The position numbers and the translations under genes were made by a program. The notes beneath the pieces are model-generated. The model saw nothing but the letters and a program-made list of their open reading frames with translations, did no database searches and was not told the origin of the DNA. Of a stretch of DNA of 64,000 bases, positions 12,521 through 55,325 are shown piece by piece. This DNA comes from Isoetes taiwanensis. Lineage: Eukaryota > Streptophyta > Lycopodiopsida > Isoetales > Isoetaceae. Position 1 is the first letter of the stretch. Every line of letters begins with the position of its first letter. The stretch lies in contig JAJEKV010000016.1 of assembly GCA_021234155.1 (NCBI GenBank), positions 1,116,001 to 1,180,000 on the forward strand, written 5' to 3'.

Positions 12521-12569
12521 TGTTTCTGTCAGTTGGCAGCCTCACCAGGTTTCTGTCCATTGGCTCCAG

Positions 12570-21879: not shown

Positions 21880-21910
<31 letters not shown>

Positions 21911-23757: not shown

Positions 23758-24236
23758 CAAGCTGATAAAAAAATTAATCGAGAAGTCAAGATATTATCAT
23801 ATAGTAGCATCAATGAGACGTTTGCACCTGGGTACAACATGAAGAACTACAATCTACCACGTCGACTTAATAGGGTTTTCAAAAAAGAAAACATGTTCCA
23901 CTTGTTTAGGGTAAACAAATGGCTCATTCATTTCTCCAAGAATCAATCTGGTAGAAACCCGAAGTTTATGTATGCCTAATCCGACTGCTATCTACCAGAA
24001 TGATACTCTCCATGATGTTTTTTAGTATGGTGCAAACATTAGTTGGTTTAGTTTGTAGTTTCAAAAGGCCTAAATATAGTTCTGTTGTATTTGCATTTGG
24101 TAATATAATTATGCTGCTCCATTTTGCAATGACTTATCCACGAAAGCAGACACAAATAATCTGAAAGTCTCTAACTCCTAAAGGGGCATCTCACAAAGGA
24201 TTTTCTCTCTTACCACAATAGAATTCAGGAACGTAA
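23758..24236 (+). repeat. 480-base tail segment (also at 28036-28515)
   Basis: This segment follows unit copies 4 and 6. It includes an open stretch of about 70 codons without an ATG start (KKINREVKILSYSS ... NPKFMYA). The stretch is kept in both copies with only two amino-acid changes. It may be an exon picked up with the duplication, but I see no domain, and the near identity of the copies could simply mean they are recent. Confidence 0.5.
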
Positions 24237-25659
24237 AGTGAAGGTTCCTTTTGGGGGATCTGTAGAGTAACTATTTTGAAGTAATCTTCTGTTATAAATC
24301 GCAGTAGCTCCATTTTGGGAAGAACCCTCTAGTTGAGAAGGCCATCTTTAGAAAAGAAATAGGCTCTGCAAATCGGCTAGTTCCAGCTTCAAAGCACAAC
24401 AGTACACCCTGAGATTTGGTTAGCTACTCAAAACTTCTTTCCAAGTCTCTATCTCCAGGTATTTACTTGGAGTTATTCAAAATGAATGGATTTCTTTCAA
24501 CCACGCTTGTGGAGCAGTCTTGCAACAGAAAATCGTGAGAGAAAATTTCCTTTTGATATAGGGATATTCAACTATTTCTCTATTTTCCATGCTCAGCCTT
24601 TAGATTCACATAGTCAATTGCTATTACACATGTGCAGTATACATGCCTATTCATAGATAAGCCATGCCTATTCATGCCACTCTTCTGTTTGGTGAAAAAA
24701 GTGTGATATATTATTATGATGCACATATCATCCTAGTGCTATTTCTTTCTTGCACAGATTCTATTCCTTGACTTTCTTCTACTGCTTGCGTAGAGACATT
24801 ACCTTAGATTCAAATAGAAATATATTTGCTTGAGAGAACAGTGATTTATTGTCACTTTTTTGTCACTAAAATAATGTGTCAAAAAACTGATACAAAAAAT
24901 GACAATAACAATGACAAAAATAGTGAAATCCAAATGACAATAAATGTGACAATAGTGTGACGCACTAGTGACAAAAAAAAGTGACAAAAAGATGATGGAA
25001 ATGTGACTATAATGTGACAATAGAATGACATGGTTTTGACAAAACTATGTGTCACAAATATGACAATAGATTGACTTAAAACTGGAGAAAAAAATAACAA
25101 ACAAATGATATAAATCTGACTATAATGTGGCAACAAATGACACAGCTCTGACAATAGACTGAAATAGTTTTGACAAAACTATGTGTCAAAAACGTGTCAA
25201 CAGACTGACTTTATAATGACAATAGTAATGACAAAGAAATGATATAAAGTTGTCCATAGTATGACAATAAAATGTCATAATATTGACTTAGAAGTTGGAG
25301 AAAAAATGGCACAAATGTGTCAACCGTGCGTCAATAGACTGCCTCAAATCTAAACAAAAGGGAGAGAACAAGATGACGAAAAGTGTGACTATAAAGTGAC
25401 AATAAGTTGATTTCAAAATGTCAATATAGTGACAATAAGTTGACTTTGAAGTGACCCACATTGTACACAATGTATAGAAAAGATATCATTAAAGTACACT
25501 CACATGAAATGCCCACCAAAGGTGGCAATTTCTTAGTGTTTTTTTGCTTCAACACTTTTCTTGATGTTGAATGCCATATTCTTGCTATGAATTATTGTTT
25601 ATGAATATGTGTGCCTTGTCTCTATATCTATCTCTTGATCTTCCTCATCTCTAAGAGCT

Positions 25660-26152
25660 ATGGGATTTCAAAAATATTCGCTTGTAGTGTTCATGCTTAT
25701 TGCTACATATTCTTCAAGAACACCCCCATCATATATATCATATAAGCCATCATCCTATGTCTATGAGAATAAAGCCAACTCCAACAAGTCCATATCATAT
25801 AACACCTCCAAGTTCTACAGGAAAGCCAATTCGAGACAATACAAGTCCATATCATAGAACACCCCCATGTTCAACTCCAAATCATACAGGTCCACATCAT
25901 GGAACACCCTCTAGCTCTACCAGCACACAAGTCCAAGATCCTATGATGCATATTCCCCCCCAAGCCCAAGATCCCATCATACATATTGCCCCCCAAGGCC
26001 AAGGTCCTACCATACACCATAAAAAAAAAAAAAAAAAACCAGGTTTGGTAGCTCTACCAAAGACACAAGTCCAAGATCCTATGATGCATATTCCCCCAAG
26101 CCCAAGATCCCATCATACATATTGCCCCCAAGGCCAAGGTCCTACCATACCC

Positions 26153-26193
<41 letters not shown>

Positions 26194-26293
26194 CAGTTTG
26201 GCCCCCTTGCCATCTCCATCCCCAAGCCCATCCCTTTTCTTCCCCAAGCCCATTAGTAGCTTAAATCAACGCGGGATCTCAGGGAAGCTTTAA
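25660..26293 (+). pseudogene. Pro-rich protein gene, copy 6 (frameshifted, internally duplicated)
   Basis: Frame broken as in copies 3 and 4. In addition, the CAAGTCCAAGATCC-to-A-run segment is present twice (about 25927-26038 and 26068-26190), with A-runs of 17 and about 35 bases. The duplication joins one A-run to a second copy of the Pro-rich stretch, which suggests unequal pairing. Confidence 0.6.
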
Positions 26294-28515
26294 ATCAAAT
26301 TGGTGGGAGGGGCGGAAATGGGCCACCGGGTCGTTCAAAACCTTAACTTTGTTATAGAGTACTAATTGTCATAGAGTATCTACCTAGTTAATATTGATGT
26401 CAAAACTATGATTGGCATTTATAACAATAAATTACAAATAAATGATGTCAAAACTATAATTGGCATTTGTAACAATACACTATAAATAAATGACACACAC
26501 TTGTGTGTGTGTGCATGTGCTTTATGCTATCTCTTTCTTTTTACTATCACTACATAATATAAACATGAAGCAGTTTATCTTCGGTTTGAAAAAAACAGGG
26601 ACACGTGCCAGACATATATAAAGCACATGGAATTTCTATGTGATATAGTTTTTTTTCCTTTTCTTTGTTGCCTAAGAATAAGAATAGGTTGAGAAAAAAC
26701 TAAAATTGAAAAGAAAATGACGTCATGACCCAAATTCTCTGTTCTGGCTGTGTTGTGTTTTGGGGCCGATCTGGTTTTCTGACCCAATTCAAGCATTCAG
26801 CTCAGTTAATAAATTGAGAAGGCATGCGACCCATCTGGATAAAGGAGCTTCGGATATCCTGAGATGATCTGAGATACCGGTGAAGGTTCCTTTTGGGGGA
26901 TCTGTAGAGTAACTATTTTGAAGTAATCTTCTGTTATAAATCACAGTAGCTCCATTTTGGGAAGAACCCTCTAGTTGAGAAGGCCATCTTTAAGAAAGAA
27001 ATAGGCTCTGCAAATCGGCCAGTTCCAGCTTTAAAGCACAGCAATACACCCTGAGATTTGGTTAGCTATTCAAAACTTCTTTCCAAGTCTCTATCTCCAG
27101 GTATTTACTTGGAGTTATTTAAAATGAATGGATTTCTTTCAACCACGCTTGTGGAGCAGTCTTGCAACAGAAAATCGTGAGAGAAAATTTCCTTTTGATA
27201 TAGGGATATTCAACTATTTCTCTATTTTCCATGCTCAGCCTTTAGATTCACATAGTCAATTGCTATTACACAGGTGCAGCATACATGCCTATTCATAGAT
27301 AAGCCATGCCTATTCATGCCACTCTTGTGTGATATATTATTATGATGCACATATCATCCTAGACCTATTTCTTTCTTGCACAGTGATTTATTGTCACTTT
27401 TTTTGTCACTAAAATAATGTGTCAAAAAACTGATACAAAAAATGACAATAACAATGACAAAAATAGTAAAATCCAAATGACAATAAATATGACAATAGTG
27501 TGACGCACTAGTGACAAAAAAAAAAAGTGACAAAAAGATGATGGAAATGTGACTATAATGTGACAATAGAATGACATGGTTTTGACAAAACTATGTGTCA
27601 AAAATATGACAATAGATTGACTTAAAACTGACGAAAAAGATAACAAACAAATGATATAAATCTGACTATAATGTGGCAACAAATGACACAGCTCTGACAA
27701 TAGACTGAAATAGTTTTGACAAAACTATGTGTCAAAAACGTGTCAACAGACTGACTTTATAATGACAATAGTAATGACAAAGAAATGATATAAATTTGTC
27801 CATAGCATGACAATAAAATGTCATAACTTTGACTTAGAAGTTGGAGAAAAAGTGGCACAAATGTGTCAACAGTGCGTCAATAGACTGCCTCAAATCTAAA
27901 CAAAAGGGAGAGAACAAGATGACGAAAAGTGTGATTATAAAGTGACAATAGCATGACAAAAAAGTGCCAATAAACTGACTTTGAAGTGACAATAGGATGA
28001 CAAAAAAATGCCAATAAACTGACTTTGAAGTGACACAAGCTGATAAAAAAATTAATCGAGAAGTCAAGATATTATCATATAGTAGCATCAATGAGACGTT
28101 TGCACCTGGGTACAACATGAAGAACTACAATCTACCACGTCGACTTAATAGGGTTTTCAAAAAAGAAAACATGTTCCACTTGTTTAGGGTAAACAAATGG
28201 CTCATTCATTTCTCCAAGAATCAATTTGGTAGAAACCCGAAGTTTCTGTATGCCTAATCAGACTGCTATCTACCAGAATGATACTCTCCATGATGTTTTT
28301 TAGTATGGTGCAAACATTAGTTGGTTTAGTTTGTAGTTTCAAAAGGCCTAAATATAGTTCTGTTGTATTTGCATTTGGTAATATAATTATGCTGCTCCAT
28401 TTTGCAATGACTTATCCACGAAAGCAGACACAAATAATCTGAAAGTCTCTAACTCCTAAAGGGACATCTCACAAAGGATTTTCTCTCTTACCACAATAGC
28501 TATTTTAGATAATTC

Positions 28516-30305: not shown

Positions 30306-32291
30306 TAGGTATACCTCATGATCCGACGTGGTAGAACTTAAAAGCCTATATGTGTCCTCCACTTTGGCTGCCGCAAGGTAGTGGGATAAACTAGCTAGTC
30401 TGTACAAGATTAGTCTAGTATGGACCTTAAACAAAGTAATAAAAAAACAATGGGACTATGGTAGGTGGCACTAGGATGGTGAGTCTAAAAAGCCATGCCC
30501 CTAGAGTTGCCCCTAGGACCTAGACTTCCTAAGGCGGGATTAAATCCTGCCTACAAAGTGTGCATGTAAGGCAAAAGTTTTGCCCAACGGATGTGTTGTG
30601 AGTTGGTATATGCCTATAATGCCAAAATAAATGTGCATTTGGTCATGGGTTCAAACCTTGCCAATGTATGTTTATCTTTGGGAGTTGGTTATTGGGGGTA
30701 TGCGATGATGATCCCCGACGTGGTAGAACTTAAAAGCCTATACGTGTCCTCCACTTTGGCTGCCGCAAGGTAGTGGGATAAACTAGCTAGTCTGTACAAG
30801 ATTAGTCTAGTATGGACCTTAAACAAAGTAATAAAAAAACAATGGGACTATGGTAGGTGGCACTAGGATGGTGAGGCTAAAAAGCCATGCCACTAGGACC
30901 TTGACTTCCTAAGGCGGGATCAAATCCTGCCTACAAAGTGTGCATGTAAGGCAAAAGTTTTGCCCAACGGATGTGTGGTGAGTTGGTATATGCCTAATAA
31001 TGCCAAAATAAATGTGCATTTGGTCATGGGTTCAAACCTTGCCAATGTATGTTTATCTTTGGGAGTTGGTTATTGGGGGTATGCGATGATGATCCCCGAT
31101 GTGGTAGAACTTAAAAGCCTATACGTGTCCTCCACTTTGGCTGCCGCAAGGTAGAACTTAAAAGCCTATACGTGTCCTCCACTTTGGCTGCCGCAAGGTA
31201 GTGGGATAAACTAGCTAGTCTGTACAAGATTAGTACGCAAGGTAGTGGGATAAACTAGCTAGTCTGTACAAGATTGTACTAATCTTGTACAGACTAGCTA
31301 GTTTATCCCACTACCTTGCGGCAGCCAAAGTGGTACTAATCTTGTACAGACTAGCTAGTTTATCCCACTACCTTGCGGCAGCCAAAGTGGAGGACATGTA
31401 TAGGCTTTTAAGTTCTACCACGTCGGGGATCATCGTCGCATACCCCCAATAACCAACTCCCAAAGATAAACATACATTGGCAAGGTTTGAACCCATGACC
31501 AAATGCACATTTATTTTGACATTATTAGGCATATACCAACTCATCATTCATCCGTTGGGCAAAACTTTTGCCTTACATGCACACTTTGTAGGCAGGACTT
31601 AATCCCCCCTTAGGAAGTCTAGGTCCTAGGGGCAACTCTAGGTCCTAGGGGCATGGCTTTTTAGCCTCACCATCCTAGTGCCACCTACCATAGTCCCATT
31701 GTTTTTTTATTACTTTGTTTAAGGTCCATACTAGACTAATCTTGTACAGACTAGCTAGTTTATCCCACTACCTTGCGGCAGCCAAAGTGGAGGACACGTA
31801 TAGGCTTTTAAGTTCTACCACGTAGGGGATCATCATCGCATACCCCCAATAACCAACTCCCAAAGATAAACATACATTAGCAAGGTTTGAACCCATGACC
31901 AAAGATAAACATACATTGGCAAGGTTTGAACCCATGACCAAAGATAAACATACATTGGCAAGGTTTGAACCCATGACCAAATGCACATTTATTTTGGCAT
32001 TATTAGGCATATACCAACTCACCACACATCCGTTGGACAAAACTTTTGCCTTACATGCACACTTTGTAGGCAGGATTTAATCCCGCCTTAGGAAGTCTAG
32101 GTCCTAGGGGTAACTCTAGGGGCATGGCTTTTTAGCCTCACCATCCTAGTGCCACCTACCATAGTCCCATTGTTTTTTTATTACTTTGTTTAAAGTCCAT
32201 ACTAGACTAATCTTGTACAGACTAGCTAGCTTATCCCACTACCTTGCGGCAGCCAAAGTGGAGGACACGTATAGGCTTTTAAGTTCTACCA
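30306..32291. repeat. Inverted cluster of ~390-base tRNA-like (SINE-like) repeats
   Basis: Direct copies at ~30312-30711 and 30712-31096, plus a fragment to 31267, are followed by inverted copies from 31268 to 32291. The centre (31255-31290) is a near-perfect palindrome around GTACAAGATTGTACTAATC. Each copy holds GGGTTCAAACCTTGCC, a good pol III B box, preceded by an A-box-like GAGTTGGTATATGCC. In the last inverted copy a 38-base stretch including the B box is present three times in tandem (31862-31978). Confidence 0.7.
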
Positions 32292-32474
32292 GCCTGACCA
32301 GTTATAGAGTAACTAACCTTGTCGTAGGGTATCTACCTAGTTAATATTGATGTCAAAAATACAATTGGCATTTATAACAATAAATTATAAATAAATGATG
32401 TCAAAACTATAATTGGCATTTATAACAATACACTATAAATAAATGACACACACTATTGTGTGTGCACATATGCT
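32292..32474 (+). repeat. Left part of the 7th copy of the 2.8-kb unit
   Basis: Matches the right arm of the unit foldback and the following bases, up to GCACATATGCTTTATTC. The unit then resumes at 38085 with TATCTCTTTCTTTTCACTATC. The two pieces are contiguous in the other copies, so the DNA between them is an insertion. Confidence 0.8.
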
Positions 32475-32659
32475 TTATTCTGGGAAGGGACTCGCAATAG
32501 ACACAAAACCGGCCGATAGGCTTGTCATTCATCACAGCAGCAGTATACAATGGTTTGAAGAATAGAGAGGGGTAGCCGACCATAGGAACAATATCGGACT
32601 ACCCCATAAAAAGAAATGTGCACAGGTAAAAATAGAGGGTATGGTGACAACTTCTCACC

Positions 32660-32710
32660 GGGATAAAAAAACCTCGCCCTTTCGGGTTTTCGAGGAAAAC
32701 CCTAATGAGA
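32660..32710 (-). repeat. Conserved 'CTCGAAAACCCGAAAGGG' motif, copy 1
   Basis: On the minus strand the sequence runs GGGTTTTCCTCGAAAACC then CGAAAGGGCGAGGTTTTTTTATCCCGG. The same ~50 bases occur at 60127-60170 (plus) and 63385-63437 (minus). In RNA, CCC-GAAA-GGG would make a stem with a GNRA tetraloop. The flanking ~120 bases are also similar between this copy and the one at 60.1 kb. Confidence 0.7.
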
Positions 32711-33084
32711 AATGGTCGCCAACAACCTTGAATGTGATGCCTGGAAAAGCGAAGAAGATGGCTCGACGGCGAACCCAAAAATAGCAGGACCCCAGAAGAC
32801 GGCAGAAGCCCCGAATGTGTTGCCTGGAGAGCCGAAAAAGGTGGTGTGATGGCGAACACAAATCTAGCATGACCCCAGAAGATGGCGGAAGCCGAAAATA
32901 CGAAGGAGACATGTCGATGGCAAAGCCAAAAAAGCAGGACCCCAAACAACCGCAGAACCTGCAGCAACTCAAAAGAACCCTAAAAATACCCGTAAATGGT
33001 TAGAAAGAACTAACATGCATGGCATGGACAAGGCAAGCCGCACAATCAAACCCTGCAAAGAAGAGCAAATTAGAACATAAAAAG

Positions 33085-33365
33085 TAGCACCCAGAAGGTG
33101 GAAAAGCATCACCCAGCGGGTGGAAAATAATTATGCGTCACCCTCAAGGTGGAAATAAATAGCATCACCCTCAAGGTGGAAAAAATAGCATCACCCTCAA
33201 GGTGGAAAAAAAATAGCATCACCCTCAAGGTGGAAATAAATAGCATCACCCTCAAGGTGGAAATAAATAGCATCACCCTCAAGGTGGAAATAAACAGCAT
33301 CACTTCCAGGTGGAGATAGCATCACCTGAAAAGTGGAGAAAGCATCACCCAACGGGTGGAAAATA
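33085..33365 (+). repeat. Minisatellite, ~27-base unit (~10 units)
   Basis: GCATCACCCTCAAGGTGGAA followed by AATAAATA is repeated with small changes. Each unit holds the inverted pair CACC/GGTG. It lies inside the first of the two inserted elements. Confidence 0.9.
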
Positions 33366-34344
33366 ACACATGAAAAATGACATGATAATGATGTAAAAAA
33401 CATTATTATAGTAAATGCAAAGTGAACAATATGAAACAAACGCGTCCCCACGGAGCAGGGCGGGAAGGGGGGAAGCTCGGAGAAGGAAGGAAGCTGCTGT
33501 GAGAAGACGCCGATAACCGGTCCTGAAGGGGAAAGAGCCTTATATAATGGCTCGTCCCCCTCGAATGGCGATCCGATGGTTCGGATCGATCGCGATCTCG
33601 GGAAGGGACTACATAATAGACACAAAACCGGCCGACTACCGAGAACTTCCTAACTATAAGCCCAAACCCTGAAACCTCCAAAGGTTGAGACGGGTCACGA
33701 AGCACGGAGCGAGAGTGATAAGAAGAGGAACGCCAGCGACCGTGAGCACGAGCTGCATCATGTGGAACCCCGCGAGCCGCAGCTGCCGAAACCCCGCCGC
33801 GACGAAAGCGTATCGCGCACCAAAAAGAGACGGGTCCAAGCCTATAGCCAGAAGGCAATCCAAATTGGAAGGAAAGTAGGATAACTATATACTAGATGTG
33901 AATAAGTGCATAGATAAGAGACCAACAATATCCTAAATGCAATTCTCACCAGAAAACAATGCCAATGTAACCTTTAATTCCATTTGCAAGATGTCAAATG
34001 CATAAGATACCGACTAAAAAATGTGCCCTAGGCCAGAGAATAGAACAAAGTATACCAACGTCCGAAGTCCAGCAGTCAAATGGTAAGAGGCAAGCACTAG
34101 ACAAGAGGGCAGAAAGGAAATCAAGCAACTACGGGGAACGAGCACATCATGCAAGATCGCGTGAGTTGCTCCTAGCCGAAAGACATCGCGGATATAGGGA
34201 AAAGAGACCCAAGTCGATAGAATGGTAAGATGGAGATGCACATGAAAATCATTTAGCACATAGAAAAAATGCATGTATCCAAGTAAAATGAAGGAGCCAC
34301 CATATGATGCAAAAAATGTTTCCATTGATCGTATTCTAAGACAA

Positions 34345-35880
34345 GAAACCATCAAAAAGTAGGTCCCATTATGCCTAGCAATGTCAAGGCAACTCTAGAT
34401 GCATAAATGATGAGGAAATAAGAACCATCAAAAATCAATAATCGTGAAAGAATACTACAAAGGAACTTACCATAGTAAATATGTGAACAACAAGCATCGA
34501 CATGACCCCAAGCAAAAAAAACCCCAACATATGGAATACTTGGAAGACAAGCCATGTAGCAATATTAAAAATAACTAAGATGGCATACACAAATCAGGTA
34601 ACAATATTTTAACAACTGGCAACATACATAAAAAGACAAAGTGCAACCTGGCAAATATGGTGAATAAATCTCGGGGCAATAAAAAGAAGGAAACCATGAG
34701 AATGCAGCATATAAAATAGAAAAACAACAGCACAGCCCGAGGAAAACACACATAGGCCACAGAAAGAAACTAAAGTAAAAATGCGGGCCAGAACATAAAC
34801 AAGAAAATCAACCGGAATAACCCAGACAACTGTTGAAGAGTGCGGTGCATCAAAAAACAAGATAAATCACAAGTGCAAAAAATAAAACCCAACAACTATG
34901 GGAAACCTAGAATGTAGAAGATAATACCACCCGAATAACCACCTGAGCCGAGTGTAGTGCATCACACATAAGATACAAACACAAGTGCAAAAGATAAAAC
35001 CCAAACCACCATGGGGAAATCCCAACGCAGAAAAGAATGCCACATAACCACATGGGAACCACAATATAAAAAATAACATACAAAAGAGATACATGTCGGA
35101 GAAATAACACGCAATTGAGGCCATACTGCAACCTACCATGGAAATGGAATGCATCAATGTAAAAAAAGACAAATGCAACCCGGAAGATGGTGGCCACAAA
35201 TCTATAGGCAATAAAAAGATAATAAACCATGGGACTGCAGCGTAGAATTATGAAAACAAGACAACATCCCAAGTAAACGACCACAAGACGAAAATGAGGC
35301 AAAAAATGAGCCAGAACATAAACAAGAGAAAAACAGCACGAGGAGAGCATAGACCCATTTAAATAGTAGCATGGCTATCGGGGACTAAAGGCATGCTTAT
35401 AGAACATATAACAATTGGGAGCAGTAAGCCCACCACAAAGAAATGGATGACCTAAGAAATGCACTGAAAAACTAAAACAAATTTCCGGGCCGGTGGAATG
35501 GATGGAGGAGGAAAGGATTCTGGTGACGAGTGCAAAGGAACCAAAAGGCAAGAAGGAGAAAACCGTCAAAAGTAGGTCCCATTACGCCTAGCAATGTCAA
35601 GGCAACTCTAGATGCATAAATGAGGCAATTAAACTGATGGCCTTGTGAAAACAAGAAGAGAACCCGTTATAGTACTCATAAGAACCATAAAAAATCAATA
35701 ATCGTAAAAGAATACTACAAAGGAACTTACCATAGTAAATATGTGAACAACAAGCATCGACATGACCCCAAGCAAAAACCCCCCAACATATGAAAAACTT
35801 GGAACACAAGGCATGTAGCAAGATTGAAAATAACTGAGATGGCATACACAAGTCAGGTAACAATATTTTAACAACTAGCA
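34345..35880. repeat. Direct ~290-base repeat inside the inserted element
   Basis: The segment at ~34350-34620 (TAGGTCCCATTATGCCTAGC ... GGTAACAATATTTTAACAAC) is repeated at ~35570-35878 with small gaps. The ~1 kb between has AT-rich, intron-like sequence, with short words (GTGCAAAA-ATAAAACCCAA) repeated around 34875 and 34990. I see no coding region. Confidence 0.7.
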
Positions 35881-36364
35881 GGACATACGGGGATGACATA
35901 CCGATATGGAGCAAGCATGGGGAGGGTCCACCCAAATGATGGAAAATATAATGTAAATGTGACTCCTAATGCTTTCCAAGGGTATATGTAAAGGGGGCAT
36001 AAGATAACCCGGTAAAGATAGGTCGAGAAGTGGCTGGCCGAAAAGCAAAAGGAAGCGAAAAGGAGGCTAAAGTAAGTCTGGTAGAGATAGAAGAAAAGGC
36101 ATGTGGTAGGGAATCGCAGAGCCAGAGAGGTGAAAACAATATAAATTAAACAAGTGCGATCACCATAAACTATCGCGACCACCATAGATACTGGAAAACA
36201 CAGTTAGTCATGTCTTTTAACCATTTATATCAAAATAACAAGAACATAATAAAAGAGAACGTTTCAATACCGTTATCTACAAACAAGGAGCCCTATAAGG
36301 AGTAAAAGCATGCGAGAAACATTAATATCATAAAGCTTAAAAAGAAAGGTTAGGAAAAGTTGAG

Positions 36365-36440
36365 TTCTAAGCCGGATTTGAACTTGGGTCTTTGCTACAA
36401 TGGATTTAAACCTTAACAAACTAGACTAGTGGATGTGTAA
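36365..36440 (-). repeat. tRNA-derived SINE-like head
   Basis: Minus strand: TAGTCTAGTTTGTTAAGG (A-box-like) then, ~45 bases on, CAAGTTCAAATCCGG, a strong pol III B box. Order and spacing fit a tRNA-like head. No full cloverleaf could be folded, so it is a SINE or tRNA pseudogene, not a tRNA gene. Confidence 0.4.
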
Positions 36441-37128
36441 TAAATTAAACTTAATAAGAACTATAAACAAATACAAATAAACCTAACAAGAGACTCTGTT
36501 TGTGCGAGGACAAGGCCGGAATGGCAAAGCAAGGTCAGAACAGGTCGGGATGGCGAGGAATCATGCCGGATTTATAGAAGCAAGGTCAGATGACTGCGGA
36601 ATGCTGGAATAGGAGTGTGAGAGGCCGTTCTACGGCTTGTTCTATCTGCAAGCTTCCAGGTATGCAATTGTAGAGCTTGAGGAAGCTTTAGGTGGAATGA
36701 TCTGCAACCGAAACCCATATCTGAAAACATTCTGGAAGAAAACAGAAATGATTAAGAGGCATCTGCTTAGAATACATCAGAGGTTTAAATTGAAGAAAAA
36801 TCCCTTTCTGCAGAAGTAAAACAGGATAAGCGTAGTCTGAGCCCTTAACCGGCAGGCGTTTGGATCCAAGCATTCCTGGCCATTGATTCATGCCCTGTGA
36901 TAGGGCATAACAGGCAATCAAAACTTCTGGGAGGCACAACAGCGTGCACAAGGTGGACAGTGGCAAGCGACTTCTCCGGGAGGGACATCCCCGAACCTAT
37001 GATAATCGACCGACAGCCCCGAACCCTCGATAATCGAAATCAGGGCCTCCCAAACCTCGATAACCCATCTCGGCGCCGCCCAACCTCGATAATCCAAAGA
37101 ATGGATGAGGCAGCTTTGCTCGGTTAAA

Positions 37129-37226
37129 GGGGATAAACACCCGCCGCCATTACTCAGGATAAACCGCTCGCCCCTCCGCTCGCCGGTTTATCCGAGGTAC
37201 TTAATGGGTTCGGGGGTGTTTATCCC
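37129..37226. repeat. 98-bp interrupted palindrome
   Basis: GGGATAAACACCC ... GGATAAACCG is mirrored by CGGTTTATCC ... GGGTGTTTATCCC around a GC-rich centre (CTCGCCCCTCCGCTCG). The left side is preceded by four 'cctcgataa' words (37025-37095). It could be a small foldback element or an RNA hairpin. Confidence 0.7.
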
Positions 37227-38084
37227 TTCATCGCCAGAGGGAAGAGGCAAAGGTGAAGGCTACGAGAAAGAAAACAACCAAGTAGAAGAGCCGGGTTGGT
37301 TGGAGCAGATCGAAGCTGGGGAGATGGCCACATGGAAGAGATCAAACTAACAATCGAGAGGAGAAGATGAGAATCTGAGCATGATAGAAGAGATTAAACC
37401 CATAATGAAAAGAAAAAGGGATGATACCAATGAGACTTAGAACCCGGAAACAGATCAAGTAGGCTACTCCCAAATGAAAAGGATCGGATACAACCACGGA
37501 ACTCATCGGCGGGCACAGATCGAAGATCGCAGCAAGCCATGCCAAGCCGAAAAGAAGGAACCCGATACCGTACAGTAATGGAAAAACGGACTCCAACGAC
37601 CGCGATATGCCGCCCACAAGAATCGTGCCAACCAACCATGCATGCTAATAGTGCTACAGGAAAGATGAGTGCATCCAATAGAAAAGAGAGACATGCACAG
37701 CGTGAGAGCAACACGGTTAGCAAGATCGAGACAGAAAACATAGAAAGAACAAGATTGCACAAAATTGCACAAATCCCAATGATATTGAAACCTTTAAGAG
37801 GATGATCAAGGAAAACTCGCCAAGAAGAAAACCGAGACGACGAGGCTGAGAAGCGATCCAGTAGTGATACCAAACGAGAGATTCGATGAAGAGAAAAACA
37901 TCGTGGATAAAGAGAAAAACATCGTGGACAGGGGCAACGTGGACGAAGAAAGCCAAGCTCGGAGAAGGAAGGAAGCTGCTGTGAGAAGACGCCGATAATC
38001 GGTCCTGAAGGGGAAAAAGCCTTATATAATGGCTCGTCCCTCCCCAGAATGGCGATCCGATGGCTCGGATCGATGCGATTCTAT

Positions 38085-45718: not shown

Positions 45719-45727
45719 GAACAGAAT
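45719..45727 (+). repeat. Target-site duplication, left (GAACAGAAT)
   Basis: The 9 bases GAACAGAAT stand directly before the left terminus and directly after the right terminus (55317-55325) of the Mutator-like element, without mismatch. Nine bases is the hallmark duplication length of the Mutator superfamily. Confidence 0.95.
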
Positions 45728-46350
45728 GGCTCAGGATAGTCTTACCCTGGTTTCGGGGATCCCGGAGGTTAAAAAACCGTCCTCCGTTATAATTCAACGG
45801 AATCCGTTTGAGGACCCCGTTTTTTGCGTGCCCGACTGCGTGGCGGCTGCATAATCTGGGTGCGTCAGCCCGCCCGACACATCAGGGCCGTCAGGTGGTG
45901 TTCCCCCTCGGTATCACCAACACCGTCCGCCCTCCGGGATCACCAGCGTGAACCAGCCCTCACGGGATCCCCATGCCCTGGCGATAACAGCGCCCGATAT
46001 CATTCCCGTGGGTGTGATCCCCCCTCGGGATGGCGATATCGACCCGCGATATCGCTCCACGATCCGGCCTCGGGATTACCACCATGGCCGATTCAGGCCG
46101 GCATCGGGGACCCGTGGAAATCCCGGCCTCCGGGATCACCGACACCGCCGGACGTGATTCCTTCCTCCGGGATCACCCACCGAAGGCCGATATCGGCGGA
46201 CCGATATCGGCCGCGTTATCCCTGCCTCCGGGATCACCACCGTGGGGCCGATATCGGCGATCCGATATCCGCCTCGTTATCCCCGCCTCCGGGATCACCA
46301 CCTCCGGTCGTGATTCCTTCCTCCGGGATCCCCACGTACGATTTGCATGA
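45728..46350 (+). repeat. Left terminal inverted repeat of the MULE
   Basis: The first 42 bases match the right end exactly. The match then continues with gaps for several hundred bases, for example ACGGAATCCGTTT-AGGACCCC near 45798, GACACATC-GGGC-GTC near 45876 and CGATCCGGCCTCGGG near 46060, all found in order on the other end. It is GC-rich and dense in GGGATC(C/A)CC and CCGATATCGG words. The inner edge is uncertain. Confidence 0.85.
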
Positions 46351-46683
46351 AAATCGACGGTGGCCAGCGGGCGTGGAATGATCGTGCGGCCAGTTTTGAA
46401 CATGTCAGCCCATGCACGGACCAACCATCCCGTCACGGACACTGGGGGGGCCGAAACCACCCTCGGGATCGCACATTTGTCTTCCGGCAAGGCTGCCGAT
46501 ATGCCGCATGGATGTTGAAGCTGCCCCTTGCGACTATGGACGTTTGGGGGCGGAGGAGAAGATAGCACATGTATTTATCGCTTAAGATTATTTTTAGGAG
46601 GTAAAAAAACGTATATCCGAGTTCCCTTTTTCGCCATTCCCAAATGCGTCTTTCGAAATACATGTGGAGTCACCCCTAATGGC

Positions 46684-49434
46684 ATTTTCGACCCACAAAG
46701 AACCTACATTGGTTTCGAGGAAGAGCACCAAGTTCCTTTACATGCGGGGAGGTGGAGAAATGCTTGTGTGGACCTACTACCTCCCAACAAACCGGGTTGA
46801 AGACTTCATTCTTGGAGAGCAAAGAAATTGTGTGGCACGCGGTGCTTCTACTTAAGGAGTTCCAATCCCAGAGGGTGCTAAAGAGGCCAACCAGGGGATT
46901 CTTATTTGACTATGAAAAGGTATGTATTTAAAAACCCTATCCTCTAGTTTCATGTTGTTGTTGTTGTTGTTTATGTAGTAGAAAACATTGTAGCGTAGTA
47001 TATTTAATTCTTAGATGTACATGCACTACTTTCATGCACTAATTTTGAACACTCAAAATAGGTACTGGTGCACATATGGTCCCTAGGACAAGACTTTGAA
47101 CACTCACGTGGTTGCTGATGGACCACGTCAACCTGGCACACGCAGGAAAAGAGTTGAGAGGGGTGAGAGTGTGCGTAGGGGCTGCCAATGCCATTTTACC
47201 ATTAGGCAACTCTACCTTCTCCCAGAATGCTCTCAAGTTACTTATTATGGGTTTGAGCATAGAAATCTCCAAGGTGAGCCTTGCCATGGTAAATTTGTTG
47301 ACGTAGAGAAAGGTATCAGATTCAAGCTAGCACCGTGGATCTCACAGGAATTGAGGGAATGGGTTAGAGAAAAGCTTGTGCATTGGCACACCCCACGAAG
47401 TGTTATGAACATGCACGAGGAGAGGTGGAGATTTAAAGTAGATGTGCATGGCAAGGATAGTTTGTGTAGGGATGACATGCTGAAGATTCGGGATGTTTAC
47501 AACATTGAGAAGTGTTGTTAGAAACACTTGGAAGCTACATGAAGACCTTCCCACTAGCATCAACATGTGGTGCAACAACATCTAGAGTCCGTGTCCTTGT
47601 ATGAACATGGTGACACGTTCCAATTGGGAGTGATGACTCCAATCCAAAGAGAGGCAATGCTGAAATTTGGAAAGAATAGGGCCATTTGCATGGATGCAAC
47701 CTTCAAAACTAATGACAAGAGGTACACTCTAAGAGTTCATTTCCATTCTAGATCTTTTCCATAGTCCATTTAAAATGGCTATAGCAGTTGGTTTCAATCA
47801 TGCAATGACATCTATTGGTTTAAAATTCAAGATGCAATGACAGCTATTGGTTTCAATTATGTAGATACTATCTTTTTACACTCATTGCCTTCGATGACCA
47901 TTGCAATGGCATGCCATTGGCATATGTCATAACCAATTCTCAAAAAAGTAGGGCTATAACTAAGTGGTTGAAAGCACTAAAGGATTCATTATGCCAGGAT
48001 GATCCGGATTGGCACCCTTCTTGCATCATAACTGACGATGCTGATGCTGAAATCAAGGCGGTAAAAAATGTAAGTGATGCCTGGCAATTTTCCCCCAAGT
48101 TATACTTTCTTGCATACTTTCTAACACTAACACTTGTAGGTTTTCCCAAACGTGCCTGTGCAAATATGCATTTGGCATGTGAGAAGAGCCTGGATTAAGT
48201 GGCTAAGCAAAAATGTACGGAGTAAGGTGCATAGAAATGAAATGTTCAAGGAGCTAGGGAATATAATGTACAAGACAGAGGGTCCTGTAGGGGACAATGA
48301 GTATGGTCATGAGTACAGGGAAGCTGTTAGGAAAGAGGCTATCAAGAGATTGGAAGAGTTGGTGAGGAAGTATCCTCAATACCCTAAATTGTCGGCCTAC
48401 ATGAGTAAGGAGTGGACTAAGAACATCTGTGAATGGGTATTGGCTACAAGAATGTACATGCACTCCAATCAAGAGACCAATGCTGCCATAGAGGCATGGC
48501 ATGCTGCCCTTAAGTTGCGCCTAGGCATATGTAAACGTGCACTTCCTAGCAGGAGAATTGACTGGTTGCTCTACATTTTCACTAACAATGTGGAGACACA
48601 CATGGCTTATATGAGGTAACATTTACATATCACTATTTACCTTGCAAATTTACCTTGCAAATGGTTGATATATAGCTATGTTCTAGGTCTATGAAGGAAC
48701 ATGGATTTGTAGTGAACACCTCACAGGAACAAATAGTAGAGTGCGCAATTAGAGGCGCTCGGAGAATTGCCGACGAACAAGTCACAATTACCAACTTCGA
48801 GGAGGGCGAGGCTGAAGTGCAAACCGAGCGCACTCTTGGACAGGGCCCGTACTTTGTTGCTGGAGCACACAAGAATTGGGCATGTTGTGATTGCCCTTGG
48901 GGAGCCAAGGGTAATCTATGTAAGCATCAGGTGAAAGTTATGCAAATGCTTGGCAATTACAGGGATCAAGATCTCTTACAGGTGTTGGGTTCCCAATATG
49001 GGACAATAGGTGGGGGCATGGACCACCTGAAGCAATACGAAGCCGTGCAAGAGAGTTGTGGAGACCAGGGATCGGAGGTGCTTGAGATAGTACGCCTAGG
49101 GGAAGAGTCTCCCTTGCAAACAAGCAGTCAAGTGGACTTGAACAAGACTCAGGCCTCCTTGGAGGCGGTAATTGCTAGAGTGATGTCTAGGGCTCAAAAA
49201 GATCCTAACATTTTAGTTGCAACTGATTCTCTCATGAGGCAGCTCGACTTTAGACTTGAGAAGATGGATGACATAGTTGGCACGAGCACTAATATATCAA
49301 GTCTACCTGAACTTACCTTGGAGGTGAATTGTGGTACTAGCTTGTCACGTGTGGTGATCCCCACCTCCGGGATCACCAGCAGGCGGACGGGATTATTTTT
49401 TAATTTTTTTTTCCCCAAGGTACAATGGTTCTAA
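46684..49434 (+). pseudogene. mudrA-like MULE transposase, damaged
   Basis: An 80-codon open stretch ends at 46919 before a likely intron to 47061. YWCTYGP follows with an in-frame TAG. Then comes a Cys/His-rich N-terminal part (RRGCQCHFTIRQLYLLP ... GEPCHG, 47170-47290). The DDE core follows: ICMDATFK (first Asp, ~47690), IITDDADAE (second Asp, ~48040), CIWHVRRAW, and NQETNAAIEAWH (Glu, ~48475). A SWIM zinc finger reads CCDCPWGAKGNLCKH (~48885-48930). Two clean GT-AG introns join the core (48070-48139 and 48616-48686), and a further intron lies about 47720-47890. One frameshift near 47515 and stops near 47150 and 47570 break the N-terminal half. The last ~25 codons run into the palindrome array, so the C-terminus has been rewritten by it. 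Confidence 0.85.
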
Positions 49435-49830
49435 GGTTATCATTTTAATCCCGTCCGCCTGCTGGTGATCCCGGAGGATGGGATCACGTGTGGTGATCCC
49501 CACCTCCGGGATCACCAGCACGCGGACGGGATTATTTTTTAATTTTTTTGTCCCCTAAGGTACAATGGTTCTAGGGTTATCAATTTAATCCCGTCGCTGC
49601 TTTGGTGATCGGGAGGATGGGATCACGTGTGGTGATCCCCACCTCCGGGATCACCAGCAGGCGGACGGGATTCATTTTTTATTTTTTTTTTCTCCCCCTA
49701 TGGTACCATGGTTCTAAGGTTATCAATTTAATCCCGTCCGCCTGCTGGTGATCCCCACCTCCGGGATCACCAGCAGAAAGGACGGATTCATTTTTTATTT
49801 TTTTTTCTCCCCCTAAGGTACCATGGTTCT
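49345..49830. repeat. Palindrome array 1 (4 units of ~120-140 bp)
   Basis: Each unit pairs GTGATCCCCACCTCCGGGAT, CACCAGCAGGCGGACGGGAT and their complements around an AT-rich centre with GGTACAATGGTTCTAAGG. The arms are ~40 bases, so each unit can fold into a hairpin. Units start near 49351, 49491, 49630 and 49749. Confidence 0.9.
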
Positions 49831-50090
49831 AAGGTCTATTTATTTCCTAATGGTTTAATTCAATTCATTTGCATGTTTCAAATGGATCATAAGTTACAAT
49901 GGGGCCTTACAATGGCCTAAAGCCCGACATTCTAATTCGAATCATTCTCAATCAATATCAAGCCTTTGTTGCCATGCCTTACGCCCGGACGTCCTCGTGA
50001 TTACATCGGCACACCCAGGGGTAGTGTCCACATGATGTGATCGAAGATGTCGTGATAAAGATGGATCAGACCCCTCTAGGACTTCCCTAA

Positions 50091-50552
50091 TTAGAACCTT
50101 CTTTCGCAGACCTCCGCGGCAAATACATTTCCTCGGCGGGCTTTTAGGGTGTTGCCTTCCCGCACAATAAAAGTAGCTAGCAAATTCTTCAAAGCCTTGC
50201 CCCGGATAATGCACTTCTTCAATTCCCAAAGCAATGCCCCCGTGGCTTGGCCGACCGGGATCATTGTCCGGAGGCCTAGGGGTCTCTGAGGCCAGTATTC
50301 CCCATTCTCCACGGTCTCTGCATGAACCATGAGGGGATCATGAAAAGATGGCTGAAAAGATTAGTATGAAAGTAGAACATAAATGTGAAGGAAGACAACA
50401 ACATGCTTACTTTGGAACGTTTTGATGCTGTCGGGTTGGGCGAGATCTAGCCCCACTTCCTCCTGAATTTCATTCAAGTGGACGAGAATATCCTCAAGGC
50501 TGTGGGCATTGATGGCACTGCCCTGCTGTAGCTGTTGTCGGGTCCTCACCAT
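50091..50552 (-). CDS. Small two-exon gene inside the MULE, unknown function
   Basis: Exon 1 (50411-50552) starts MVRTRQQLQQGSAINAHSLE and contains an acidic helix (DILVHLNEIQEEVGLDL). A 93-bp GT-AG intron (50318-50410) joins in phase to exon 2 (50091-50317): TVENGEYWPQRPLGLRTMIP, LLWELKKCIIRGKALKNLLA, FIVREGNTLKARRGNVFA, ending CERRF and a stop. The product is ~116 residues, with a basic second half. I recognise no domain. The intact splice frame argues that it was under selection in the element's past. It lies between the two palindrome arrays. An accessory role in transposition (such as the mudrB partner of MuDR) is only a guess. Confidence 0.55.
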
Positions 50553-50739
50553 CTGTCACTTAGCTACTGAACTCAATTGAAACCAACTTACTTTCTAGCA
50601 AGAACCACTAAGGCAAGGGTATATATAAACTCATGAATCAACCGTTGTACTATCCGTTGTACAACGGTTAACCCTTGATTTCAATTTTTAATGGTAAAGT
50701 GGTAAAGTGGACCTTTTTTTCAATGGCTAGGTACCTCTA

Positions 50740-51560
50740 TTATTTTTTTGGACGTGGGGATCCCGGAGGACGGAATCCACGCTTGGGGATCCCGGAGGAC
50801 TGGATCGCCGGTGGTGATCCCCACCTCCGGGATCACCAGATCGCGGACGGACTTTATTTTTTTTTCCTTGCCTATTAGGTACAATGGTTATAAGGTTTTC
50901 GAATTTATTCCCGTCCGCCATCTGGTGATCCCGGAGATAGGTGATCCCCACCTCCGGGATCACCAGATGGCGGACGAGCCTTTTTTTTTCTAAGGTTCTA
51001 TGGTTCTAAGCTTTTCGAATTTATTCCCGTCCGTGATCTGGTGATCCCGGAGGTCGGGATCACTAGTGGTGATCCCCACCTCCGGGATCACCAGTAAGCG
51101 GGCGAACTTTTTTTTTTTTTGGTTCTATGGTTCTAAGGTTTTCGAATTTATTCCCGTCCGCGATCTGGTGATCCCGGAGGTCAAGATCACCAGTCGTGCA
51201 CCCGGCGTCCGGGATCACCTGATGGCGGACGAACTTATTCTTTTTTTTTTGCCTACGAGGTACTATGGTTCTTAGCTTTTCGAATTTATTCCCGTCCGCG
51301 ATGTGGTGATCCCGGAGGACGGGTTCACCAGTGGTGATACCAACCTCCGGGATCACCAGATCGCGGACGGACTTATCTTTTTTTTTAAGGTACAAGGGTT
51401 CCATGGTTTTCGAATTTATTCCCGTCCGCCATCTGGTGATCCCGGAGGTGGGGATCACCATGGGTGATCCCCACCTCCGAGATCACCAGATCGCGGGCGG
51501 ATTTTTTTTTTTATTTTGTTGCCCACAAGGTGCAGTGGTTCTAAGGTTTTCGAATTTATT
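50740..51560. repeat. Palindrome array 2 (about 6 units of ~125-135 bp)
   Basis: Similar to array 1 but with a different inner word: ATCTGGTGATCCCGGAGG and its complement flank CGGACGGACTT ... TTCGAATTTATTCCCGTCCG. Unit heads lie near 50811, 50945, 51066, 51195, 51331 and 51460. Each centre keeps GGTACAATGGTTCTAAGG, as in array 1, so both arrays come from one ancestral hairpin. Confidence 0.9.
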
Positions 51561-51639
51561 CCCGTCCTCTGGGATCACCACAATAATTGTTTTTTTTTTT
51601 GTGTTTGTCTTTTCCATTGGTTGTTTTAATATTTGCCTC

Positions 51640-51725
51640 CCTGGGGATCCCGGAGGTGTTCAAACTTCGGGATCCCAGAGCTATTCAAGTTTGGGGATCC
51701 CAGAGGTGTTCAAATTCCCAAACAT
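51640..51725 (+). repeat. Short tandem repeat of terminal-type words
   Basis: GGGATCCC(G/A)GAG followed by 'GTGTTCAAA' or similar appears three times at ~32-34-base spacing. It uses the same GGGATCCCGGAGG word that stands at base ~31 of the element ends, so it may be an internal copy of a terminal binding site. Confidence 0.7.
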
Positions 51726-51995
51726 CTGTGGCCAACATCTGTTATGAATTGAGGGGATGCATTGACGATTCAGAGTAAACCCAGATAAGGAAAAACAAAA
51801 GCTATTTCCCACATCAATTAACCATTCAGAAACTGTCATATTTTACAATCATAGCAAAAAATTTACATGTTGAACAAGGATCAAAAGTTTTTTTCTGTTA
51901 TGGACCATTCAGCATCAAACGGGTCACGGGCCGATCGAATTGGTTGCTACCCTCGGGCAAGTAGAAGGTTGATTTTTCCCTTTTAGGCGGTCCAC

Positions 51996-54292
51996 TTAAC
52001 TTCTCGCAAAGATGATCTTGAAGCTTGTCCTCAAATTGTCCATGTCTTCTTTGGCAAACCAGTCCCTGTGGATCACCATCTGTACACAGTAGATTATAAA
52101 TGGACACTAAATAAATTTGCTGATCAAGAAAGACAGAAGATAAGACATAGACAACTCACATCTGTCTCCTTCATGTAGATTTCTCTGATGAATTTCTGCA
52201 CACAACCAATAACATAGATGCCACAATCCTGGTTGTTGTGCTGCTGTGGAGCTTCCATCAAGGTTACTGGTGCATTATGCAATGCTGATGCCTCGTGCCT
52301 CCACCTCTTAAATACATCACTTAAAAACCTGCAATTCAAGGCATTAGAAGATAGGCTATGAATGAATAGTTACCAAATTTTGCACTCACAAAGTGATGAA
52401 CCCGCGTGTTGGAGCATGGAGGGGATCAAAGGAATCGAAGTGCAATATGCAAGCATGCCAAAGGATCAGCCACCAAAATGAACAGGCTCCAGTGGCCACT
52501 GCATAGGACAAGCTGCCATCAATTCAAACCAGAACTAAAAAGGCAATAAAAAATCCACTTCCCAAACCCAATTTACCTGGCATTGACCGGTATGTAGTAG
52601 AACTGTGCATGGATTTTCCACACGGCCTTGCCAAAGGGGGATCCTGGAATTAGCTTGACGAACTGCTCGTAGGCACCACAGAGGCCTGGTTTTGTGCCAT
52701 TTAGAAACAGGTCAAAAGCAGCAGGGTGGAGGAAGACATGATGACAGCGTTTTTGGTGAGGAATTGAGTGTGCAAGAACCCTGCCAAAGCTCAACTTAGC
52801 ATACCATGCAAGAAATAAAAACAAAGACAACACACATACAGTAAATAGGCTCCTAGGCAGTCGGCATCGATCTCTGAATCTTCAATACCGAGGTCACCTG
52901 GAATAGTCGAGAATTTTCGTGCCTCTGTCTCTGAGATGTGGAATTCAACATCGGATTATTTGCTGCCCACCTTCAGCAGAGGACTTTGAACCACAATTGG
53001 ATAATCCAGAGAAAATCTAAACTGCCAAAGCTCCTTTCTAATCCCTCTGTCATATAATTTTAGAGATTCAAAGAAGTGGGGTCCAAAGATATACAAATAC
53101 CACAATTTTATCTTGCTCTGGTGGTCGGGGAGCCAATTCATGCATTTTCAGGCTCCTCCTCCTCCTCTCGATTCTTCATGCACAATATGGTTTGGAGCCA
53201 TCGATCTCGCATCCCTCAGGGCCTGCACAAAAGTCCGCTTCCTTGGGGTCACACTGTAGACTTGGGCTATTCAATTTGGGGTTTTGGGAGGAGGTGAATT
53301 AAAATCAAAGCGTATCGCGCGACTTCAAACTCCGCGACTCACATATCTTCGTCCAACCGGTGTTCTGTTCATAGCTCAAATCACGAAACAAATCCTTCTC
53401 ATCCAAATTGCCATGCTTGCCCCTAATCCTTTCCTTGATTTCCCTTATCCGCTCTACCGCATTTCTAGTTTCGTGGCCTCCTTTCTCCGCACCTCGCGGG
53501 GGTTTATAAGCTTCGGCTCGGGCCGTGTCATCCAAAAGGCCGAGGGCGATTTGCTCATCGCCATACGCCTCTGCTGCCGCCCTTGCCCTCCAAGTTTTCG
53601 TCTCGGATTGTGGCTAAATTTGAAGTCGAGTCAAGAGATCTCTCCACACTTATCTTCCCATAATCTCTAACCCTCACCTCGGCCTTGTTCTTGAATTCGA
53701 CCCCTCGAGGCATCGGGAAGCCTTTGTAATTTTGCCATAATTAATGCACCATGAACCTATGATTCTCGATTCGATCTTCTCTTTGTAGGATTTCTTTGAG
53801 ATCACCGGCAACAGCGCCATTTTCGACCGACTGATCATACACCCGTAGTCCTTCAAAATTTCTTGGTGGTGGGTTCCTCGCTTGGATTGGCGTTAAAACA
53901 TTCAATATTACTTTTCGGGGCCTCGGCCCCTCATCATCTACATTTTTAGCATTCTTTAGATCATCGCTTTTTTCGTGGCATTGGCCATCAACTGAAGCCT
54001 CGTCCCTGGCTTTCGGGGTATTCTTCTGTGGTGAAGCGCCCTTAGCTCTTGCTTCTGCCCTTAATCTCTTCTTGTTCGGGGATTGAACCTCTTGGTCGGA
54101 TTCAATCTGAGCAATATCTTTGAGGCAGTCGGGCAATGGCCAAGCCGAGTTTCCTTCCATTTCCCCATTCCAGTTCTCGTTAATGGAGGTATTTAGGCTG
54201 ATTTCGAAGTTAATCGACTCCTCCACCATCTGTAAAATAACATAACCGGTTAGAATAAGACTAAAATAGACTTTAACAACGGATCTGTCCAT
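51996..54292 (-). CDS. Ulp1/C48-type SUMO-protease-like gene inside the MULE
   Basis: Exons from the 3' side: 51996-52079 (IHRDWFAKEDMDNLR...FARS, stop), 52160-52328, 52390-52498, 52577-52780 and 52840 upward, with four consistent GT-AG introns of 59-80 bp. Catalytic parts are visible in the order of C48 proteases: YIPVNA then GHWSLFIL (His), CILHFDSFDP (Asp), NNQDCGIYV (Gln and Cys). Upstream are GPHFFESLKLYDRG, a Gly/Glu-rich stretch, DLSYEQNTGW and an N-terminal acidic/basic region (MVEESINFEIS ... SPNKKRLRAEARAK). Such enzymes cut SUMO from target proteins. Problems: His and Asp are one base out of frame in exon 52390-52498 unless a different acceptor is used, and TAA codons occur near 53745 and 52970. 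The gene may be damaged or need other introns. Confidence 0.75.
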
Positions 54293-54639
54293 GGCGCTTA
54301 CCTTTAAATACTCGGCAGATGCAACAGCAGCGACAGCGCCTCTGGATTCGGCAGCAATCGGGCCCTTTCCAATCAGTTCCGGTCGGAAAGGGCAATCGTT
54401 CTTGGCGCACAGAGTTCGGACATAGCCATCGCACCACTGTGCTCCCTTCCTCCGGAATCCGCGACCGCACTGCGTGGCGACTTCGCGGGTGGGCCCTGAA
54501 TAAGCGGGCGGTTTTCCCGCTCTCCGGTTACACCATTAGTGGATGGCGTACGACACTGACCTAGGCCGTCAGGCATTAATTCAAACCAATGGCATCGATT
54601 GAACCACGTGGACGGCCCCCGGCTTTCGTCAAGGCAGTG

Positions 54640-55316
54640 GTGATCCCGGAGGAGGTTTTCACCGAGAAGGACTTTCGGGGATCCCGGAGGTCGGAATAAG
54701 CCTCCGGCGATAATGGCATCCGGGACGGCCGACGATGGCGATCCCTGAGGAGGGATCATCACTGCCGTGATTCGGGGATCCCGGAGGAAATAATCACGCC
54801 GGGGTATCGGCGGATCCCCGAGGAGGGATTCACCACTACTGATATCGGGCGCTTATCGCCGAGTCCTTTCTCGATCCCTGGAGGGGCAAAGATCTTCCCG
54901 TCCCCGATGTCGGGCCGACGCCGGGCCATGGTGGTGATCCCCGAGGCCGGATCGTGGTGATATCGGGTGGCCGATATCGCCACGCCGATGGCGATCCCCG
55001 AGGAGGGGATCACACCCACCGCTGATATCGGGCTGTTATCGGCTGTGGTATGGGGATCCCCGAGGGCGGATCAAAGGCGCCTTTGATTCCTGGAGGGCTG
55101 GATCAGCGCTGGTGATACCGGAGGGCGGGAACACCACCGGACGCCCGGATGTGTCGCTGGGCGGACGGCCCAGATTTATGCAGGACCCCTCACGTGTGTC
55201 AGTACGGTGAAACGGGGGGTCCTGAAACGGATTCCGTCGAGCCCTGGGGGTGATACCGGAGGACGGTTTTTTTTACCTCCGGGATCCCCGAAACCAGGGT
55301 AAGACTATCCTGAGCC
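54640..55316 (-). repeat. Right terminal inverted repeat of the MULE
   Basis: Inverted, gapped copy of the left end (see 45728-46350). The outermost 42 bases are identical. The Ulp1-like gene begins just inside it, so the repeat probably supplies its promoter. In MuDR, the terminal repeats serve as promoters for both genes. Confidence 0.85.
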
Positions 55317-55325
55317 GAACAGAAT
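55317..55325 (+). repeat. Target-site duplication, right (GAACAGAAT)
   Basis: Exact copy of 45719-45727. Removing the element and one duplication restores a continuous flank: CATGCAGACG, GAACAGAAT, GGCCTACTGA. Confidence 0.95.

Follow-up and report, generated by a model that had tools for sequence, protein, structure and literature searches.

A Mutator-like transposon family with terminal inverted repeats in the lycophyte Isoetes taiwanensis pairs a transposase gene with a Ulp1-like protease gene that looks selected and with arrays of a candidate protein-binding motif

The reason why several groups of transposons carry Ulp1-like (C48) proteases is unsettled, and the papers cited below describe the plant cases as domains that were captured (transduplicated) and whose use is unknown; here and below, cited sources stand for the extracts of them that were available. 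Among Mutator-like elements (MULEs), the KAONASHI elements (KI-MULEs, with KIU genes) of Arabidopsis lack terminal inverted repeats (TIRs) and hold a C48 gene in reverse orientation to the transposase (PMC2528002); a 2026 review counts this gene among the three coding genes of the non-TIR group (PMC13317346). VANDAL21 likewise carries three genes, VANA, VANB and VANC, together with tandem arrays of a short motif in its non-coding DNA; these non-coding regions vary among related copies of VANDAL21 and VANDAL6, and VANC proteins show the domains DUF1985 and DUF287 (PMC5735166). In MULEs of melon, rice and grapevine, Ulp1 genes stand in either orientation to the transposase, and in melon they also occur in TIR-MULEs and Jittery-like MULEs (PMC2528002). 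Here we describe a Ulp1-bearing, three-gene MULE in a 64,000-nucleotide stretch of the genome of Isoetes taiwanensis (contig JAJEKV010000016.1 of assembly GCA_021234155.1, positions 1,116,001 to 1,180,000; hereafter the window). The element belongs to a multi-copy family with TIRs, its protease gene looks selected, and a short motif recurs in its non-coding blocks.

The element spans positions 45728-55316 of the window (9,589 bp) with exact ends. Its inverted ends, 45728-45776 and 55268-55316, begin at the inner edges of two perfect copies of the 9-bp duplication GAACAGAAT and are 98% complementary over 49 nt, the outermost 42 being identical. A weaker inverted similarity of the window copy extends over 384/417 nt at 76%, and long TIRs are found in all nine two-ended elements inspected, the window copy included (alignments of 343-627 columns, 76-94%). 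An earlier note on this DNA had described perfect 9-bp duplications, exact outer 42 bases and long inverted ends at 45719-55325, and each of these holds. The transposase gene lies on the plus strand; the small gene and the Ulp1 gene lie on the minus strand and face it. The parts of the element are as follows, motif sites being those of the 14-bp motif CCTCCGGGATCACC with up to 3 mismatches.

45719..45727, no strand: left target-site duplication, 9 bp, GAACAGAAT
45728..46559, no strand: left TIR and subterminal region, 8 motif sites, 7 on the plus strand
46680..49434, plus strand: transposase gene, 5 exons, splice sites set by visual inspection of the family majority
49345..49840, no strand: hairpin array A, between the convergent genes, 5 motif sites
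49920..50552, minus strand: small gene, exon 1 at 50411-50552 and exon 2 at about 49920-50317, splice sites set by visual inspection, reading frame broken in the window copy
50750..51715, no strand: hairpin array B, 16 motif sites, 7 on the plus and 9 on the minus strand
51901..54535, minus strand: Ulp1/C48 protease gene, several exons, 5' end not fixed
54301..55316, no strand: right TIR and subterminal region, 12 motif sites, 10 on the minus strand
55317..55325, no strand: right target-site duplication, the same 9 bp, GAACAGAAT

We searched the 1.66-Gb assembly to which the window belongs (1,658,258,908 bases in 1,110 records) for relatives. The left end returned at least 80 matches (40 of 848 candidates were scored); 38 of the 80 start no later than query base 18 (the element itself starts at base 10), and many of the others are internal repeats. 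Eight of the ten loci examined possess both ends within the stretch retrieved, and six of these eight are flanked by a perfect 9-bp duplication of their own, those of C1044 and C1030 being imperfect. DNA of the transposase and of the Ulp1 gene is matched at least partly in all eight two-ended copies, and the small gene in five (C1082, C1034b, C907a, C1044 and C1102); the other three lack the small gene. The outcome that the earlier note had named as speaking against a single element, relatives with other end points or a lack of the Ulp1 and small genes in all of them, did not appear. In C907a (L019-L020), correct outer ends and a duplication enclose an inverted interior, as if the middle had been flipped between the TIRs. 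L059 is a further, strongly frame-broken copy holding parts of the three genes in unchanged order. C996 was considered as a distant relative on account of a 49% protein match and rejected; it is a frame-broken family copy of about 85-95% DNA identity.

The arrangement of the genes was assessed on the best-scored 150 of 1,482 transposase, 1,969 Ulp1 and 1,030 small-gene candidates; since each list holds only these best-scored matches, absence from it carries no meaning, and the following counts apply among the matches listed. A Ulp1 match within 15 kb accompanies 40 of the 150 transposase matches, and in 39 of these 40 the two genes are convergent; by simple arithmetic, chance would place about 0.3 such neighbours beside 106 loci in 1.66 Gb. 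All 31 small-gene matches with a transposase match within 15 kb are convergent with it, and 38 of the 39 that have a Ulp1 match stand in the expected order. Where three genes occur together (17 sets), the order is without exception transposase, small gene, Ulp1, with the last two facing the first. One could suppose that unrelated elements or genes came to be nested by chance between two TIRs, and some copies do carry further changes, such as the inverted interior of C907a or the approximately 8 kb that sit between two Ulp1 pieces in C1030. This explanation, to which we assign practically no probability, is refuted by copies at distinct sites that have their own duplications and the same content, and by the 17 ordered triplets; the claim that three genes reside within one element stands on the same observations. 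With hardly a doubt, the element represents a multi-copy TIR Mutator-like transposon family of the autonomous type.

The earlier note had called the element complete. This is right for its structure, including both ends; its reading frames look broken. Measured against the family majority over the exons scored, the window copy carries about 3 frame-breaking indels in the transposase, 8 in Ulp1 and 8 in the small gene, together with 0, 1 and 2 in-frame stops, respectively. Copies of the family, that of the window included, differ from the majority in 1-9% of their bases and by many indels; frames are broken in 11 of 11 scored transposase and 8 of 8 scored Ulp1 sequences, and two of six scorable small genes are free of such breaks. 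These counts are approximate because the majority itself holds at least one likely homopolymer error. Single-base indels make up 387 of the 606 counted. Some of those in the window may be assembly errors, since the assembly is nanopore-based (PMC8566536).

The transposase was predicted to comprise at least five exons (approximately 46680-46919, 47087-47721, 47865-48069, 48140-48615 and 48687-49434; start codon not fixed), with a MULE domain in exons 2-3 and a SWIM zinc finger in the last. The spliced majority protein, which possesses MULE and ZSWIM-type RNase H domains, exceeds the cut-off of the Pfam MULE family PF10551 (2.4e-19, 70 bits, cut-off 27.6), and a single exon of the window remains just under it (4.9e-6, 27.3 bits). 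For SWIM the window exon passes (20.4 bits, cut-off 19.6) and the majority protein stays slightly below (18.8). The earlier reading of this gene as a transposase of the MULE kind with a SWIM motif is confirmed. Neither the transposase nor the Ulp1 majority protein found a match at 0.001 in a protein database, a collection that may be poor in plant proteins.

The Ulp1 majority protein scores well above the cut-off of Peptidase_C48, PF02902 (1.7e-10, 41.5 bits, cut-off 20.7), and even a single exon of the window is recognized (1.2e-4); among solved structures, SENP7 is the closest in sequence (6e-5). The 5' side shows a likely intron at 54229 and, after it, an in-frame ATG; the open frame extends to 54535. 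The His, Asp, Gln and Cys residues that had been noticed in the window sequence are mostly kept across 31 loci.

52492..52494, minus strand: catalytic His codon, His in 27 of 31 loci
52434..52436, minus strand: catalytic Asp codon, Asp in 31 of 31 loci
52241..52243, minus strand: catalytic Gln codon, Gln in 24 of 31 loci, with a gap in one of the remaining seven
52223..52225, minus strand: catalytic Cys codon, Cys in 29 of 31 loci, with gaps in the remaining two

For 14 of these 31 loci we computed the ratio of non-synonymous to synonymous substitution rates (dN/dS) of the C48 exons relative to the family majority, skipping codons with gaps or stops. Eleven more distant loci gave 0.21-0.46, lowest at a dS of about 0.4, and three near copies, one of them that of the window, gave 0.89, 1.99 and 0.90; three pairs compared across groups lie at 0.22-0.27. 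In the same eleven loci the exons are conserved above the introns and the 3' region by 1-16 points, and in several near copies (e.g., L030, L032, L053 and L059) the introns and the 3' region are the better conserved parts. Near copies of the family drift freely, and the lineages that went on transposing have conserved the protease. Because the ratios of distant and near copies differ in this manner, the protease looks like a selected part of the element rather than cargo, maintained by purifying selection as the family diversified, a reading that we consider very probable. That Ulp1 is instead a passively captured host fragment without function, in the manner of Pack-MULEs, would fit the broken Ulp1 frame of the window copy and the frequent capture of gene fragments by MULEs (PMC2528002). 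It is at odds with the low ratios among distant loci, with the largely retained catalytic residues, and with the constant position and orientation in 39 of 40 pairs. We regard such a capture as highly improbable, since the substitution bias would then have to be an alignment artefact.

The small gene has a majority protein of 171 amino acids encoded in two exons, without a match in Pfam or PDB, and had rightly been noted as a gene of unknown family with an intron. It has at least 150 scored matches in the genome, and 88 of the 105 matches of at least 77% identity are free of stops. Among 29 matches of at most 60% identity, 22 are stop-free and none has a transposase or Ulp1 neighbour among the matches listed; these may represent other transposon families sharing the same protein.

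The motif CCTCCGGGATCACC is concentrated in four non-coding blocks, the two termini and the two intergenic arrays, at densities of 9.6-16.3 sites per kb when up to 3 mismatches are allowed. At this setting there are 41 sites in the 3.3 kb of non-coding element DNA, none in 6.2 kb of genes (bounded at 46560-49348, 49841-50700 and 51721-54300; one 3-mismatch site, 54449, falls in a possible 5' exon of the Ulp1 gene) and 4 in the 54.4 kb outside. With up to 2 mismatches, all 38 sites of the window lie inside the element, and shuffled sequences lead one to expect 0.19. The exact 16-mer CCTCCGGGATCACCAG occurs 705 times in the genome, compared with 2 occurrences of a reversed control, and 87 of 100 listed places lie within 5 kb of a listed match of the same family. 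In a count of recurring words for which no motif was chosen in advance, the arrays of the 84-87% and 78% groups of relatives have the motif core in first place. Core 12-mers of the array B unit (1 mismatch allowed) recur 39 and 44 times in the arrays of these two groups, respectively, as counted without a shuffled control, and 11 words of the loop (50861-50901) recur in neither. The motif core persists in more distant groups while the loop of the array is replaced, and we consider the motif a probable protein-binding site.

The same motif, with one mismatch, lies inside the outer 42 bases of the TIRs. This bears on another explanation, by which the protease serves transposition and not the countering of silencing, stripping SUMO (small ubiquitin-like modifier) from the transposase or from break-repair factors, and the motif is a transposase site that slippage has spread into the arrays. 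The subterminal sites mostly face inward, 7 of 8 at the left end and 10 of 12 at the right, which would agree with it, and a role in transposition or repair has been proposed for Ulp1 and OTU proteases (PMC2836005). Taken alone, it leaves the retention of the core in loop-replaced internal arrays unexplained, and we hold it to be somewhat unlikely.

The related locus L060 (G000:C930:4002400-4004900) lies 2.6-5.1 kb downstream of a transposase exon of 65% identity, perhaps outside the element of that exon. The 2.5 kb of this one locus contain no motif site with up to 3 mismatches and no Ulp1 match better than E 2; a different short repeat, built on GTGATTCCACGGAAT, is present at the far end. 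The stretch also holds a 184-amino-acid minus-strand frame without a Pfam match and a 15-bp tandem array; by eye, the tail of this frame resembles an opposite-strand peptide at the start of the stretch, with the 15-bp array between them.

The internal hairpin arrays reported earlier are present at 49345-49840 and 50750-51715 and fold strongly in prediction: three array units reach z values of -9.65, -3.70 and -7.64, and array B as a whole -31 (20 shuffles). When hairpin arms were compared with pooled shuffles, the own partner fitted better (none of 1000 shuffles was as good). Strong folding and a position between convergent genes could also mean that the arrays are a liability or a switch, where convergent transcripts would yield double-stranded RNA and host silencing by small interfering RNAs, or where transcripts end. 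Since this would predict neither the persistence of the core only nor the same motif in both ends, we consider it quite unlikely.

Putting these features together, we propose that the motif would be bound by an element protein, namely the transposase, the small protein or the long N-terminal part of the Ulp1 gene product. At the termini this binding would serve transposition, and the internal arrays would provide a landing pad where element proteins gather on the element. At this pad, the Ulp1-like protease might take SUMO, or some related modifier, off a host factor of silencing or of repair, which would keep the element expressed or allow its excision and repair. For this chain as a whole, a selected protease and a bound motif with counter-silencing as the most likely purpose, we see an even chance; that the protease relieves a SUMO-type host restraint is a tentative proposal, a little short of even. 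The earlier note had likewise inferred a role of this sort, to which evidence of selection on the protease is now added. In its boldest form, the proposal is that a TIR-MULE of a lycophyte carries a complete counter-silencing cassette that is addressed by sequence and is either independent of VANC or older than it: an element protein would read the arrays and bring a deSUMOylating protease to the element, and cassette and motif would travel together; this we judge unlikely. If true, motif-guided counter-defence of transposons would reach well beyond flowering plants. The role of the protease becomes testable in this family because it offers many copies in several groups, measurable selection and a compact candidate motif.

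A number of points weigh against the counter-silencing proposal. C48 folds can process modifiers other than SUMO, the SENP7 match notwithstanding, and a 2018 review judged the Kaonashi proteases of Arabidopsis unlikely to act on SUMO (PMC6117577). Not every close pair is neutral: L041-L042 has a dN/dS of 0.91, but two pairs within the 78% group lie at 0.32 and 0.29. In the one diverged transposase piece examined, L037, an excess of third-position changes is absent (7, 4 and 3 changes over about 110 codons). Because the motif also occurs in the TIRs, plain transposase binding may explain all of its sites; moreover, the last transposase frame extends about 90 nt into array A and takes in the motif site at 49364. 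The 80% group is represented by one locus, where no more than 4-5 recurrences were counted for core words and 4 for each word of another repeat; a core word ranks first (5). Thirteen of the 100 listed CCTCCGGGATCACCAG places have no listed family match nearby. As to the hairpins, covariation of their arms was not supported, since shuffling within the same source gave an equal or better fit in 988 of 1000 trials; because arms fit other arms of the same source equally well, homogenisation may have produced the hairpins as a by-product.

The 13 orphan CCTCCGGGATCACCAG places lie in C57, C95, C112, C341 and C481 (G000), with no listed family match within 10 kb; they may be unlisted copies or elements that retain only the arrays.

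The earlier note knew of no described element with this three-gene layout plus internal hairpin arrays. Novelty of the three-gene layout is not supported: Kaonashi (PMC13317346) and VANDAL21 (PMC5735166) elements have three genes as well. The Kaonashi type that the note names agrees with the reverse-oriented C48 gene, convergent in nearly all listed pairs, and fails on the ends, because KI-MULEs are non-TIR elements and the Isoetes family possesses TIRs. Unlike KAONASHI, the family also has a host outside the flowering plants, and DUF1985 was not detected. Our scan for DUF1985 and DUF287 gave no match in pieces of the majority genes (E 0.1) or in pieces of the upstream part from window and majority (E 10), a domain split between pieces being liable to be missed. 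Since DUF1985 was not detected and TIRs are present, we file the family under neither VANDAL nor Kaonashi. It differs from VANDAL in that its motif core is constant across the sampled groups and also lies within the TIRs. For the melon, rice and grapevine elements, the available extract of the source mentions neither a conserved third gene nor shared motif arrays (PMC2528002). Ginger1, known chiefly from Hydra, is a DNA transposon that pairs a transposase with Ulp1 in some families, but it belongs to another transposase superfamily, and there the transposase itself bears Ulp1 as its C-terminal domain (PMC2836005). We thus see in the Isoetes family a variant of the Ulp1-bearing and three-gene MULEs known from flowering plants: TIR-bearing, from a lycophyte and without a detected VANC domain. 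Long TIRs, convergent genes and a 9-bp duplication are also the features of MuDR of maize, and to our knowledge its mudrB, unlike the gene in Isoetes, is not a C48 gene. The layout of the Isoetes family is close enough to that known from VANDAL and Kaonashi elements to make a similar working logic likely; we keep this functional likeness, which is plausible, apart from kinship. In the top-ranked titles and abstract beginnings of the openly licensed literature, we found neither this family nor a Ulp1 MULE of lycophytes described.

Elsewhere in the window, one set of tandem repeats (33, 48 and 12 bp) returns every 3-4 kb at 12000-28100, as if its members were parts of a larger unit repeated several times. 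A strong excess of A over T on the plus strand (AT skew 0.29-0.45) accompanies minisatellite-like repeats at 32001-38000, and a perfect TCTCTA array of about 36 copies occupies 8058-8272. A minus-strand frame at 1612-2541 encodes a Myb/SANT-like DNA-binding domain (4.2e-9) and may be a host gene or a helper of a Harbinger-type transposon.

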